This document shows, in pieces, positions 14,360 to 31,289 of a stretch of DNA of 35,578 nucleotides. Position 1 is the first letter of the stretch, and each line of letters begins with the position of its first letter. The position numbers were made by a program, and so were the translations under genes. This stretch comes from Candidatus Nomurabacteria bacterium (GTDB taxonomy: Bacteria; Patescibacteriota; Minisyncoccia; Phycocordibacterales; SBAW01): assembly GCA_020854065.1 (NCBI GenBank), contig JADZGF010000014.1, positions 1 through 35,578 of the forward strand, in the 5' to 3' direction. Under the pieces are notes generated by a model. The model was given only the letters and a program-made list of their open reading frames with translations, was not told the DNA's origin and ran no database searches.

Positions 14360-15217
14360 ATGAATAGAGTTACGTTAACTGCTAAACCTACAGAAGGGTA
14401 TTCTTTGTTAGATTCTGGACAGGAGGAAAAGCTCGAGCGCTTTGGAGATGTACTTTTAGCACGTCCAGATCCTCAAGCTCTATGGCCAAAGCATCTTGAA
14501 GAGGGGGAGTGGACCAAAGCCCAAGGTCGCTATGAGCGTAAAAACAAAGAGGGGGTGTGGCATGCGCAGAATTTGCCTGAAGAATGGCAGATACAATATG
14601 GCGGCTTCACTTTTCTCATTAAACCGACATCGTTTAAACATACGGGGCTATTTCCCGAGCAAATCTCCAATTGGGAGTGGATTCAGGAAAATATTACACT
14701 TGGAGCAAAAGTATTAAATCTTTTTGGATACACCGGAGGTGCGAGTCTTGCTGCCGCTGCTGCAGGAGCAGAGGTAACTCACGTTGATGCATCGAAGACT
14801 GCCGTATCCTGGGCAAGCGAAAACGCAAAGTTAAGCGGGTTAGGGGAGAAGCCTATCCGTTGGATAGTCGAAGATGCTATTTCATACTTAGAGCGCGAGG
14901 TTAAGCGTGGCAACAAATACGATGCGGTCATTATGGATCCGCCGGCATTTGGTCATGGTCCCAAGGACGAATTGTGGAAATTTGAGGAACACTTCCTTAC
15001 GCTTATGCGTTTAGTGGAGGAATTATTGAGCGACAAACCACTGTTTGTGCTTATTAACGGCTACGCAGCAGGCTACTCGCCACTTGCGTTTGCGTATAAC
15101 CTAGAGTCGCTTACAAAAAAATATGGCGGAAATGTCGAATATGGCGACTTGGCTATAGCAGAGGAGGGAAGTGAACGCGTTCTACCCTGTGGAATCTTTG
15201 CGCGGTGGAGTGTTTAG
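14360..15217 (+). CDS. Class I SAM-dependent methyltransferase, RlmI/RlmK-like
   Basis: GAKVLNLFGYTGGASLAAAAAGAEVTHVDASKTAVSWASENAKLSGL...YDAVIMDPPAFGHG. Confidence 0.9.
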   Translation: MNRVTLTAKPTEGYSLLDSGQEEKLERFGDVLLARPDPQALWPKHLEEGEWTKAQGRYERKNKEGVWHAQNLPEEWQIQYGGFTFLIKPTSFKHTGLFPEQISNWEWIQENITLGAKVLNLFGYTGGASLAAAAAGAEVTHVDASKTAVSWASENAKLSGLGEKPIRWIVEDAISYLEREVKRGNKYDAVIMDPPAFGHGPKDELWKFEEHFLTLMRLVEELLSDKPLFVLINGYAAGYSPLAFAYNLESLTKKYGGNVEYGDLAIAEEGSERVLPCGIFARWSV

Positions 15218-15948
15218 ATCTTCTGCCAAACCATTTCAAAAATTTCTTTTACTGTTTTAGCAACTTCAGCATTTTCGAGCACTATTCCCTGTAGATTTTT
15301 ATAATCGTGGATACGGACGCAATTTCCTATCACGTCCATAGCGATTTGGGAGGAAAATTGCTGGTGGGGGACTGTTTTAAATTTCGCTCCTATCTGCGCA
15401 TCACGCTTGCGGTATTCTTCAAGTGATGCATGTTCGGGTGCTATGCCACGCATGGTTATGTTTATCTTGTGCCGTTTTTCGTTCCACTCTGTAAAATAAT
15501 CGGTCAGCTCTTTCGGCAAATGCTCACTCGTCGCATAAAATCCGACTACCTCTTTGTTTTTGTTTTCTGCAAATCCGTATTCCATAGCCTGCTCCAGACC
15601 GGCTATTCCTTCGAAATGCGTCGTTTTGACTCGAGACGTGTTGTTGGCGAACTCTCTCATGAGTTCGGGCAGTAAATTTTCCGCCTCAGCGATTCCTCGT
15701 TTGACTTCGTGTACGAAATCGTCAGGAGATTGAGCGCGGAACATTTGTTTCTTAGACCCGGGCATCTTTAATACCAACCCGCGTTTACGGAGATCCTCCA
15801 AAACCACGTAGGTAGTAGGTCGTTTAAGGCCTGCGGCACGGGCTACAGCGTTTGCTGACCCTTGCCCAAGGGTGAGTAGACCTAAGTAAACTCGGCTTTC
15901 TTTGTCGCTTAACCCTAGTTTTTGGAGGGTATTGGCTTGGTTTGGCAT
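15214..15948 (-). CDS. TrmB-family transcriptional regulator
   Basis: N-terminal wHTH LGLSDKESRVYLGLLTLGQGSANAVARAAGLKRPTTYVVLEDLRKRGLV; effector-like C-terminal domain. Confidence 0.88.
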   Translation of the reverse strand: MPNQANTLQKLGLSDKESRVYLGLLTLGQGSANAVARAAGLKRPTTYVVLEDLRKRGLVLKMPGSKKQMFRAQSPDDFVHEVKRGIAEAENLLPELMREFANNTSRVKTTHFEGIAGLEQAMEYGFAENKNKEVVGFYATSEHLPKELTDYFTEWNEKRHKINITMRGIAPEHASLEEYRKRDAQIGAKFKTVPHQQFSSQIAMDVIGNCVRIHDYKNLQGIVLENAEVAKTVKEIFEMVWQKI

Positions 15949-15954
15949 GGCTCT

Positions 15955-15983
15955 AGTATAGAGCCAGTCTCTATTTCTGTCAA
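15955..15983 (-). promoter_or_regulatory. Promoter of TrmB-like gene, leaderless configuration, with inverted repeats
   Basis: TTGACA (15983-15978) N17 TATACT (15960-15955) N6 ATG; ATAGAG-ccagt-CTCTAT and TGTCA-ataaaaa-TGACA overlap it. Confidence 0.65.
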
Positions 15984-16060
15984 TAAAAATGACAACAATC
16001 TATATATGTCTTTAATATATTGATAAATAAGGCTAATTTGGACACTGTCTAGGCAGTATT

Positions 16061-16090
16061 TTGGACTACTCTTGCTAAATCACTCATAAT
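16061..16090 (+). promoter_or_regulatory. Candidate promoter of the radical SAM/micropeptide island
   Basis: TTGGAC (16061-16066) N18 CATAAT (16085-16090), about 50-nt leader with AGGAGG before ATG. Confidence 0.5.
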
Positions 16091-16146
16091 ATTGCGCAGT
16101 AATTCTGTACTTTGTAACCCCCCTCAACCAGCCCCAGGAGGCCACC

Positions 16147-17310
16147 ATGACCTATTCCTCGAGACTGCTGGCCGATCCCGCCTTTATGGCGATCGATGCC
16201 TGGCGCCGGGCCACGATCCTGGGAGAGAGTCGCGAGGAACTTATCCAGGCGCTCCTGCGCCGGGAAGTCCCTCCCCTCATTTCCTGGATCGTACGCGGAG
16301 GTTGCGCGGTGCAGTGTGAACACTGCATCTTCCCGTTCGAGGGACCGAAAGGTCACTCAGACAGGATCAGCACGGAGATAATGCTCTCCTTGTTGGCGCA
16401 GCTTTCGGGACGAGGGAATCTGGTACACGAAGGGAGGCAACTCCTGCCGTGGCAGATACCCGTCCTCGCAGCGGCGAAGCGTGCAGGCCATGGCGTGTCG
16501 GTCATTAACAATGGCCAATACGCTACGCCGAGCATGCTCGCGCTTTGTGACCACCATGGTCTGAAAGTCGACGCACTCGATGTGTCGATCGACGGGCCGG
16601 AAGCGGTACACAATCTGCAGCGCAACCATGCGAACGCATGGCGTTGGGCGATGAATGGTCTGGCAGAGGGTCGGCGCATTGCCGACAAGCTCACCAGTCT
16701 CTTCACCCTAACGGCCCTTAACTCGGAGCATGTGGCGGAAACCGGCAAGATTGCCGGCGACCTCGTCGATGAATGGCACCTGACAACCATGTCAGTGCGG
16801 CCAGGCATCGAACACATGCTGCCGACGCGTTCACAATTGAGCGCGGCATTGGACCAACTTGCGGGCCTGCGGCTTGGGATTCCGGTATATCTCCGGAGTT
16901 ACTCGCTGCAAGGCTTCGTTGCACTTTGCGAGGTAATTGGGAAAGAGGCAGTGCGTAAGGCGCTGCGGGAGGCACAAGTCATTGATATGACACCCAGCAA
17001 TGGGATTGTGCTGAACGTAGAGGGTATCAACCTCTATTTCTACCCCAAGAGCCTCCAGTGCAACGAGACGCTGGTTGTTGATGCTGATGGGTGGTGGCGA
17101 CTTCCTTTTAGTGTGGCGCACACTTTGGATGAACTCCAATGTGGGCAAAGCACCGAAGGGGACGACCTGTCTCACTTCAGTATCGCACCAGTGTCCGAGA
17201 AGTTGGATGTGGCTGAAGTCTATGCGCGCTCCACCGTAGGGTGGTGGCAGGCGGTAGGCCGAAAGTCCTTCAATGAGGAACGGGTTGCTGTGGAGCGACT
17301 CCTGGCATGA
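16147..17310 (+). CDS. Radical SAM protein
   Basis: CX3CX2C motif GGCAVQCEHCIFPFEG, followed by a TIM-barrel-compatible sequence (VINNGQYATPSML; ALDVSIDGPEAVH); AGGAGG SD at about 16136. Confidence 0.88.
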   Translation: MTYSSRLLADPAFMAIDAWRRATILGESREELIQALLRREVPPLISWIVRGGCAVQCEHCIFPFEGPKGHSDRISTEIMLSLLAQLSGRGNLVHEGRQLLPWQIPVLAAAKRAGHGVSVINNGQYATPSMLALCDHHGLKVDALDVSIDGPEAVHNLQRNHANAWRWAMNGLAEGRRIADKLTSLFTLTALNSEHVAETGKIAGDLVDEWHLTTMSVRPGIEHMLPTRSQLSAALDQLAGLRLGIPVYLRSYSLQGFVALCEVIGKEAVRKALREAQVIDMTPSNGIVLNVEGINLYFYPKSLQCNETLVVDADGWWRLPFSVAHTLDELQCGQSTEGDDLSHFSIAPVSEKLDVAEVYARSTVGWWQAVGRKSFNEERVAVERLLA

Positions 17311-17365
17311 AAACCAGGCGGAGCCGACTGACACTCAACGAACGTTGCGAAACGTGCGTTGGATT

Positions 17366-17398
17366 CGGAGCGGGTTGATATCCCGCTTGGCACCAGAA
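17366..17398 (+). repeat. Island hairpin repeat, copy A
   Basis: CGGAGCGGGTTGATATCCCGCTTGGCACCAGAA; stem AGCGGG/CCCGCT; extended structured region continues to about 17530. Confidence 0.85.
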
Positions 17399-17593
17399 GC
17401 TCTGAGTACTCGCAAGAGGCAGTAGGAGCAAAACTATCAACCGACTGGGGGGAAGCAATTTCTCCCCTCTGTTGAGAATTTGATTCGCCAGCCGGCGGAG
17501 TTCGAATTTTCATCGAGACAAGTTCTTTTACAGCATGAACACGGCTTGGCAATCCCGCTAAGCTGCCCTCTAACCAAAGAAAGGAGGTGAAAC

Positions 17594-17650
17594 ATGGCAG
17601 CTGCGAACACTGGCTCGACCGGTGTGGGCAAGCCTCGTCCTCCCAAGTAG
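17594..17650 (+). CDS. Micropeptide 1: MAAANTGSTGVGKPRPPK
   Basis: AAAGGAGGTGA SD at about 17580-17590; 14/18 aa identical to the peptide at 17754; conserved codons that differ do so synonymously. Confidence 0.82.
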   Translation: MAAANTGSTGVGKPRPPK

Positions 17651-17680
17651 GGGGCGGAGTGAGCCATCCTGAGTAAGACT

Positions 17681-17709
17681 CGGAGCTTGGGTAGAGCTTG
17701 GCAACAGAA
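17681..17709 (+). repeat. Island hairpin repeat, divergent copy D
   Basis: CGGAGCttgggtagaGCTTGGCAACAGAA: same flanks, replaced hairpin interior. Confidence 0.7.
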
Positions 17710-17753
17710 TCTGCCCACTGTTCTTGCAACAAATCTGAAAGGAGGTGATTGCG

Positions 17754-17810
17754 ATGTCGGGAGCCAATACTGGCTCGACTGGGGTGACACAACCCCGTCC
17801 GCCGAAGTAA
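17754..17810 (+). CDS. Micropeptide 2: MSGANTGSTGVTQPRPPK
   Basis: AAAGGAGGTGA SD at about 17738-17748; paralog of peptide 1; stop codon inside a GCCGAAG-taa-GGGCTTAAGCCCTTCGGC stem-loop. Confidence 0.82.
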   Translation: MSGANTGSTGVTQPRPPK

Positions 17811-17842
17811 GGGCTTAAGCCCTTCGGCACTTGTCTCACAAA

Positions 17843-17875
17843 CGGAGCGGGCTGATATCCCGCTTGGCAACAGAA
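17843..17875 (+). repeat. Island hairpin repeat, copy B
   Basis: CGGAGCGGGCTGATATCCCGCTTGGCAACAGAA; extended structured region to about 17960. Confidence 0.85.
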
Positions 17876-18005
17876 ACAAAACTATCACCACTGGGAGAAA
17901 GTAATTTCTCCCCTCTATTGAGAATCGGATGTATCGGATTCTCATTGAGATTCGTTCTTTCAAACTTAAACAGGCCATACCGGCCAACAGCCTTAGGAGG
18001 GCAGA

Positions 18006-18542
18006 ATGGTCAACTTGATTATCGTCGTTGAGGACAAGCGGGAAGAACAAGAGCGGGCCCTCGAGGCAATCAAGCGCTCCCTTGGCGATGTCGAGGAAAT
18101 AAGCGAAGAGAAAGGCGGGAGAGTAAATCTCTTCCGTGACTGCCCGAGCCCGATGGTGGCACTGAAATCGCCAGACGGTGGTGGCACACTGATACACTTC
18201 GCTGCAACTCTTGAAATAGCGGAGATACGCCTGAACTCTGTGCGCAGTTTCGCCAACTGCCTGCAGAAGGTTGGTGTCATAACCGACCTGATGTTCCCCG
18301 CAAAATGCGGTGGAAAGGAGGAGCCAAATGGGCTTGGCATTATTGCCAAGTGCATTGAGGCAAAGTTGCGCGTAGTGGTCTGTAGCGATATCGACCATCA
18401 CGATGTCGACTGGCTGCGCCCTATCTTCCCAATCTTGGGGAAGGCGCATCCGACTGGCGATGTTCCTGTCATTCTGGACAAGAAAGACTGGGACAAAGCC
18501 GTCGCCCTCCTTGCTGACACACCTGTGTCGGCAGCAGCCTGA
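18006..18542 (+). CDS. Divergent response-regulator receiver-like protein
   Basis: IIVVEDKREEQERALEAI (acidic pocket-like), GVITDLMFP (phospho-Asp-like), RVVVCSDID, VILDKKDWDKAVALL (Lys-like); AGGAGG SD 5 nt before ATG. Confidence 0.6.
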   Translation: MVNLIIVVEDKREEQERALEAIKRSLGDVEEISEEKGGRVNLFRDCPSPMVALKSPDGGGTLIHFAATLEIAEIRLNSVRSFANCLQKVGVITDLMFPAKCGGKEEPNGLGIIAKCIEAKLRVVVCSDIDHHDVDWLRPIFPILGKAHPTGDVPVILDKKDWDKAVALLADTPVSAAA

Positions 18543-18548
18543 CGAGTT

Positions 18549-18581
18549 CGGAGCGGGCTGATATACCGCTTGGCAACAGAA
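18549..18581 (+). repeat. Island hairpin repeat, copy C
   Basis: CGGAGCGGGCTGATATACCGCTTGGCAACAGAA, then ACAAAACTATCACCG shared with copy B. Confidence 0.85.
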
Positions 18582-18600
18582 ACAAAACTATCACCGCACA

Positions 18601-18631
18601 CAACCGTCGCTACCAAGCGGCGGTTTTCTTT
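18601..18631 (+). terminator. Intrinsic terminator closing the radical SAM island
   Basis: ACCGTCGC-taccaa-GCGGCGGT followed by TTTCTTTTT. Confidence 0.75.
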
Positions 18632-30935: not shown

Positions 30936-31199
30936 TTTGTCGTACCCATCTTTGATAACTACATAGCGATTTAGGAAAAACACATCGCGCAAGCGATATG
31001 TATGTTGTTCCTCGTCGCCGGACTTACTTCTGTAGGTATGGTACGAGGGATCGCAATAGTGCAATCCCACAACCCGAAGGGGGCTTCCATGTACATCATC
31101 GATCGTTCTGGCATCGTGCACTTTATCCGCAGCAAGTCACAGGTTGCCGAGAAGGCAAAGGAGGGGCGTGAAGCCGGCAAGTAAATTTTTCAAGGAAAT

Positions 31200-31228
31200 T
31201 GGCGAGCACTGCGGTGCTCGCCTTCTTT
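31200..31228 (+). terminator. Intrinsic terminator
   Basis: GGCGAGCAC-tgcg-GTGCTCGCC-TTCTTT. Confidence 0.75.
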
Positions 31229-31289
31229 ATCAACCACACGAATCTTTCGTGTGGTCGTAGAGAAATCTTGATTGAAAGAGGAGGTTCCT

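Follow-up and report, generated by a model that had tools for sequence, protein, structure and literature searches.

A conserved two-hairpin RNA with a boxA-like tail lies between small genes of Patescibacteria arrays

The window analysed here is a stretch of 35,578 nucleotides of Candidatus Nomurabacteria DNA (assembly GCA_020854065.1, contig JADZGF010000014.1, positions 1 to 35,578). It contains a 3.4 kb island at a site where many genomes of the same genus have a methyltransferase gene and HtrA directly or almost directly adjoining. Most relatives lack the island; in some of them other genes are found there, and the junction is a variable site in the genus (L037, L042, L046, L051). Small Gly-rich peptides (...GANAPLPRGPAAPP...) are encoded at this junction in L042 and L046. 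In the window, a TrmB-like regulator gene stands divergent from an array of four genes for a radical SAM protein, two peptides and a receiver-like protein (Table 1), and the two peptide genes are located between two copies, A and B, of the RNA motif described below.

Table 1. Features of the island and of a third, separate motif copy in the window
Feature	Position	Strand	Remarks
Island	15214-18625		Between methyltransferase (15217) and HtrA (18632)
TrmB-like transcriptional regulator	15214-15948	-	PF01978, E 7e-16; divergent from array
Radical SAM protein	16147-17310	+	Array gene 1
3'-of-gene module	17366-17398	+	Behind radical SAM gene; 30-nt insert, then CAAAACTATCA
RNA motif copy A	17429-17530	+	CAAAACTATCA, then hairpin 1 at 17447-17466; 82.5 bits, E 1e-18
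Copy A hairpin 2	about 17467-17518	+	boxA-like tail GTTCTTT at 17522-17528
Peptide 1	17594-17650	+	MAAANTGSTGVGKPRPPK; Shine-Dalgarno AAAGGAGG
3'-of-gene module, shortened	17679-17711	+	Between peptides 1 and 2; E 2e-4
Peptide 2	17754-17810	+	MSGANTGSTGVTQPRPPK
3'-of-gene module	17843-17888	+	Behind peptide 2; 46/46 identical to L005
RNA motif copy B	17877-17962	+	CAAAACTATCA, then hairpin 1 at 17893-17912; 87.2 bits, E 6e-20
Copy B hairpin 2	about 17913-17949	+	boxA-like tail GTTCTTT at 17954-17960
Receiver-like protein	18006-18542	+	Conserved D10, D94, K160
3'-of-gene module	18549-18594	+	Behind last gene; terminator next, no two-hairpin motif
Intrinsic-terminator-like hairpin + T run	18602-18625	+	Array end
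Third RNA motif copy	31182-31275	+	37.8 bits, model R3

Both peptides begin with M[AST]GAN[TA]G[ST], a start shared by MAGANTGSAGAQRSPKKLPKTRSKTKKK in L017 and by two tandem peptides in L018; no NCBIfam or Pfam match was obtained for peptides of this kind. Peptides like peptide 1 also adjoin radical SAM homologues (30-37% identity) in L016-L018, which belong to distant Patescibacteria, and L016 has a TrmB-like gene as well. We regard these peptides together with the radical SAM protein as a candidate for a new RiPP-like system. The receiver-like protein is found at five loci of the same layout, four with the RNA (G000, G329, G892 and G529) and one without it (G379), and a more distant receiver is present in G852. 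Members of this family (L007, L008, L109, L143, L163) conserve the phospho-acceptor Asp and the Lys, and in several Patescibacteria their genes adjoin that of a divergent TrmB-like regulator. Pfam Response_reg was reached by a single cargo protein, and no receiver relatives were detected in phage and plasmid collections.

Copies A and B lie where the original prediction had placed them and, as it had proposed, both fold into the same two hairpins, and stably so (copy B, MFE -46.1 kcal/mol, z -4.2; copy A, z -2.6). The stems were also correctly said to be kept by wobble or paired changes: all five stem substitutions between the copies preserve pairing, and 16 of 16 pairs are retained. In hairpin 1 these are two changes from A-U to G.U (in the register of B), one more than had been counted; in hairpin 2 a C-G pair has become U-A by compensating changes, and a G-C pair has become G.U. 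A simple substitution model gives a probability of about 0.001-0.03, depending on the transition bias, that five stem substitutions leave 16 pairs intact, so that the two copies, paralogues with 85% identity across 41 nt, are by themselves suggestive and not decisive.

The hairpins are indeed shared by both copies, but the "extended repeat" of which they were thought to be part is not one unit, since the 33-46 nt upstream of the motif (GGAGCGGG..CTATCA) form a separate module with the layout GGAGCGGG-CUGAUAU-CCCGC-UUGGCAACAG, usually followed by ACAAAACUAUCA. The window carries four copies of this module, one behind each of the four plus-strand genes. In L005, from a different Kaiserbacteria MAG, the sole copy lies behind the sole cargo gene and is identical at 46/46 positions, as against 27-37% identity for the nearby proteins. 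Related copies in G529, G512 and G034 include some compensated stems (GAGCCGG/CCGGCTT, GACCCGG/CCGGGTT) around an unchanged CUGAUAU loop. At array ends (18549 in the window, and L005) the module is followed by a terminator, without hairpins 1 and 2; it is therefore to be assigned to the 3' end of the gene that it follows, whereas hairpins 1 and 2 and the tail form part of the junction. When the 45-nt repeat was searched for, either exactly or with 3 mismatches allowed, it was recovered only from the window genome and L005, three further matches being due to chance. We discarded the idea that the repeat is a promoter (13-nt spacer, from reading the sequence). Between the cargo terminator and the tRNA gene of L005, about 19 nt of the tRNA-Gly 3' end (TGCGGGATGGGAGAATCG) are repeated about 165 nt apart (1777-1795 and 1941-1961), an arrangement that resembles what integration at a tRNA would leave behind.

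R1, a covariance model trained on just A and B, matched L007, in genome G329 of another family, with 34.4 bits (E 6.5e-6 over 174 kb); the matching site immediately follows a homologue of the receiver-like gene of the window. Across the order, R1 found copies in 10/297 genomes, and many flanks carried extra ones. A second model, R3, built from a 19-copy alignment and applied across the class, found copies in 28/286 genomes (E up to 0.01), about a tenth of those sampled, which brought the total to about 69 distinct copies in about 35 Patescibacteria genomes. In the 19-copy alignment 93.1% of cells were paired, two-sided changes occurred at 20/22 pairs, and covariation was 0.601, compared with 0.203 +/- 0.020 in shuffled alignments and at most 0.134 in slid registers. 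With 52 copies the corresponding figures were 91.9%, 22/22 and 0.667, against 0.224 +/- 0.011 and at most 0.149. Covariation persisted in the 44 copies from stretches outside model building (0.650; shuffled 0.223 +/- 0.012; slid at most 0.146); its absence from an expanded alignment would have refuted the original prediction, which passed this test by a wide margin. These alignments were fitted to the model and are thus biased toward its structure; even so, in view of the slid registers and of how large the effect is, hardly any doubt about the structure remains, and the expanded alignments decide what the two copies alone could not.

As to specificity, R3 gave only two matches in 49 other loci (184 kb), both close to a TrmB-like gene. 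Outside the class it was applied to a limited set of loci only; besides, E-values are rough because calibration was short, and the genomes are MAGs sampled by taxonomy. Rfam (release 15), at gathering and permissive thresholds, returned only tRNAs or chance-level matches, and no family fits the motif. Viral contigs contained no match to the repeat, the receiver or the radical SAM protein, and the 12 stretches in them that fitted a degenerate hairpin-2 pattern were not upheld by the RNA model. A and B are thus members of an undescribed, widely conserved sense-strand RNA of about 95 nt, and we consider the structured RNA itself to be established. Patescibacteria have few structured RNAs of their own that are known to us; a literature search that lacked most subscription journals found no paper on structured RNAs, TrmB loci or radical SAM loci of this group.

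The motif is situated on the sense strand, oriented like the array genes shown, between consecutive small ORFs, with medians of about 7 nt from the previous stop to the motif and about 28 nt from its end to the next start (distances from our own Shine-Dalgarno-based ORF calls). One stretch may hold up to four copies. A TrmB-like gene is present in 25 of the 41 motif stretches and divergent in 23, where it lies 0.24-2.8 kb upstream of the first RNA in all but one case; there were 26 TrmB matches at 3.5 kb or less from the RNAs, as opposed to 2 in 150 kb farther away and 1 in control loci totalling 125 kb. The array cargo varies between genomes; most of it is small and unmatched in Pfam, and no function is shared. 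There are exceptions to the layout: in L163 and L170 the RNA precedes the first clear ORF, and L114 lacks a clear next gene. The third copy of the window, which the original prediction did not include, directly follows one small ORF (about 31088-31184) and precedes another (from about 31291), and no TrmB-like gene was found near it. The proposal of a cis-regulatory RNA is compatible with the inter-ORF site close to the next start, but not in the form of a leader specific to the peptide or receiver gene; the motif is rather a junction element of multi-gene arrays.

Arrays such as L109, L106 and L105 are often found beside exonuclease III-like, RNase Y and poly(A)/CCA polymerase genes, and these recurring housekeeping neighbours suggest recurrent insertion sites. 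A short hairpin just before the Shine-Dalgarno sequence is also frequent (e.g. GGCCATACCGGCC-AACAG and GCGGGAATACCCCGC-ACAACA), as at 17964-17990 in the window, 1270-1300 in L007, about 1830-1860 in L008 and 1120-1150 in L005.

Aligned pair cells include 83 G.U and 21 A.C, and for 48 of 52 copies folding is better on the sense strand than on the complementary one, which indicates that the functional strand is that of the transcript; the model favours G.U by itself, and the G.U/A.C argument is accordingly only supporting evidence. Judged from these sequence features, the motif most likely acts as RNA within the transcript. Its consensus runs CAAA..., hairpin 1, CUCU, hairpin 2, GAGA and the tail AGUUCUUUnAAA. 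Hairpin 2 is closed by CUC/GAG, has conserved UGAG/CUCA ends and contains a small conserved internal loop, and loops in general are variable in length and not conserved in sequence. In one copy, on the minus strand of L090 (genome G499, 1501-1603), the site of hairpin 2 carries CTGATGAGTCCAAAAGGACGAAA, the core sequence of a hammerhead ribozyme; a hammerhead was not upheld there, as Rfam gave no match at the gathering threshold.

The tail is close to the boxA of rRNA antitermination. Exact GYTCTTT occurs in 30 of 69 distinct tails, compared with none in the reversed sequences and 0.1 expected by shuffling; as the tail lies partly within the model, this enrichment is not fully independent, and about half of the tails do not have the exact sequence. 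A-rich positions follow just past the model end. The published E. coli boxA consensus is GYTCTTTAANA, and functional boxA sites outside rRNA can be separated from a start codon by no more than about 50 nt (PMC5725501); the second half of the tail is looser than that consensus. In rRNA leaders, boxA is matched only approximately in a relative (G034), by TGTTATTTGAAAA, and less well still in the window genome, by TTTTGTTTGAGAA, so the rRNA leaders of the clade seem to lend no more than partial support to the boxA form of the tail. Pairing of the tail with the Shine-Dalgarno region was noticed by eye for peptide 1 only.

The mechanism can only be inferred. We favour a cis-acting junction element with boxA/Nus-type control of Rho or of reinitiation, because the tail resembles boxA, but we hold this as a tentative preference that falls short of being probable, with no expression, binding or termination data at hand. 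The array would be a single polycistronic transcript, its promoter under the TrmB-like protein, and each RNA would act in cis on that transcript and tune expression of the next gene. The hairpins may present the boxA-like tail, recruiting NusB-S10 to the elongating polymerase; this would decide whether the polymerase passes a junction that is little translated (an anti-Rho effect), or else would govern how accessible the following start codon, some 28 nt away, is. The 3'-of-gene module may mark or protect gene 3' ends. Counting against a boxA reading, we know of no requirement of boxA elements for two conserved hairpins.

A role in mRNA processing or stability is somewhat doubtful but has points in its favour. 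Cleavage of the hairpins (by enzymes of the RNase III, Y or J type), or a block to exonucleases, would give unequal gene levels, for instance more peptide than enzyme; stable hairpins at gene junctions, the internal loop of hairpin 2 held between sequence-conserved pairs, and the position of the peptide genes between A and B would all fit, whereas the conserved single-stranded tail and the tight distance to the next start codon would remain unexplained. We find a leader-type switch unlikely. Here the pyrimidine-rich 3' arm of hairpin 1 could pair with the ribosome-binding site of the next gene, in translational coupling or ligand sensing, and in 51 of 52 copies purines do make up at least 75% of its 5' arm, which is Shine-Dalgarno-like in 25 of 52; hairpin 2 differs in this. 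The nearby upstream stop and the short median distance to the next start agree with such a switch. However, the unconserved, length-variable loops are unlike typical riboswitch pockets, and a common ligand is unlikely because the cargo genes share no function. A riboswitch would be expected to have conserved ligand-binding loops and to control genes of one pathway, which is not what the motif shows, and there is no indication that the RNA senses a ligand or a peptide. Neither is an intrinsic terminator or attenuator supported, as a terminator-like U run (at least 5 T in 8 nt) follows hairpin 1 in only 11 of 52 copies and hairpin 2 in 6 of 52.

An attC-like recombination site, in which cargo ORF and element form a mobile integron-like unit recognised as folded single-stranded DNA, seems very improbable to us. 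Unrelated small ORFs in arrays with a structured element between them, cargo that changes from genome to genome, and the perfect identity of the 3'-of-gene module in L005 next to strongly diverged proteins speak for it, but the strand asymmetry favours a transcript (with the caveat about G.U given above), the GTTRRRY/RYYYAAC ends are absent (the motif ends in GTTCTTTnA and starts with CAAA...), and of the 81 proteins encoded near 28 array stretches just 2 have integrase-type domains, a count limited to the neighbourhoods, without whole-genome search. A functionless duplicated intergenic sequence, which the similarity of A and B alone might have suggested, is excluded for the motif by covariation in about 35 genomes and is practically ruled out.

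Returning to the junction element that we favour, it is possible, although we put this forward cautiously and do not expect it to be the likelier outcome, that these loci represent a new type of bacterial array, in which fast-changing small genes of unknown function and a TrmB-like regulator are combined with a shared two-hairpin RNA and its boxA-like tail as a general-purpose joint. If so, the joint would let unrelated genes enter one transcript and yet stay expressed; some genomes would have, in addition, another hairpin module at the 3' end of each gene. The motif marks regulated arrays in which small proteins of unknown function abound, together with receiver-like proteins and radical SAM/peptide pairs; it offers a handle on the control of polycistronic expression in these tiny, uncultured bacteria, and the model can be used to find more arrays.

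Among known systems, boxA/nut-type signals (NusB-S10; rRNA leaders and the suhB 5' UTR) resemble the motif in sequence, its conserved GUUCUUUnAAA being close to GYTCTTTAANA, and share with it adjacent hairpins and a start codon no more than about 50 nt away; the motif differs in its two covarying hairpins with a conserved internal loop, in its repetition at small-gene junctions and in a tail that only partly matches the rRNA boxA of its own clade. The EAR and put RNAs, which act in processive antitermination, are likewise structured and lie in untranslated regions of transcripts with several genes, and EAR too is intercistronic; in contrast, our motif has no Rfam match and occurs in much smaller operons, with several copies in each. 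Integron attC arrays likewise consist of tandem small ORFs of unknown function with a structured element between them, but the motif pairs as RNA and not as bottom-strand DNA, has no associated integrase and is headed by a TrmB-like regulator gene. Finally, REP-like intercistronic repeats place hairpins between genes of one transcript, as the motif does, whereas the motif has a fixed orientation and a conserved single-stranded tail, and is found at one or a few loci in diverse genomes instead of being scattered within one genome.
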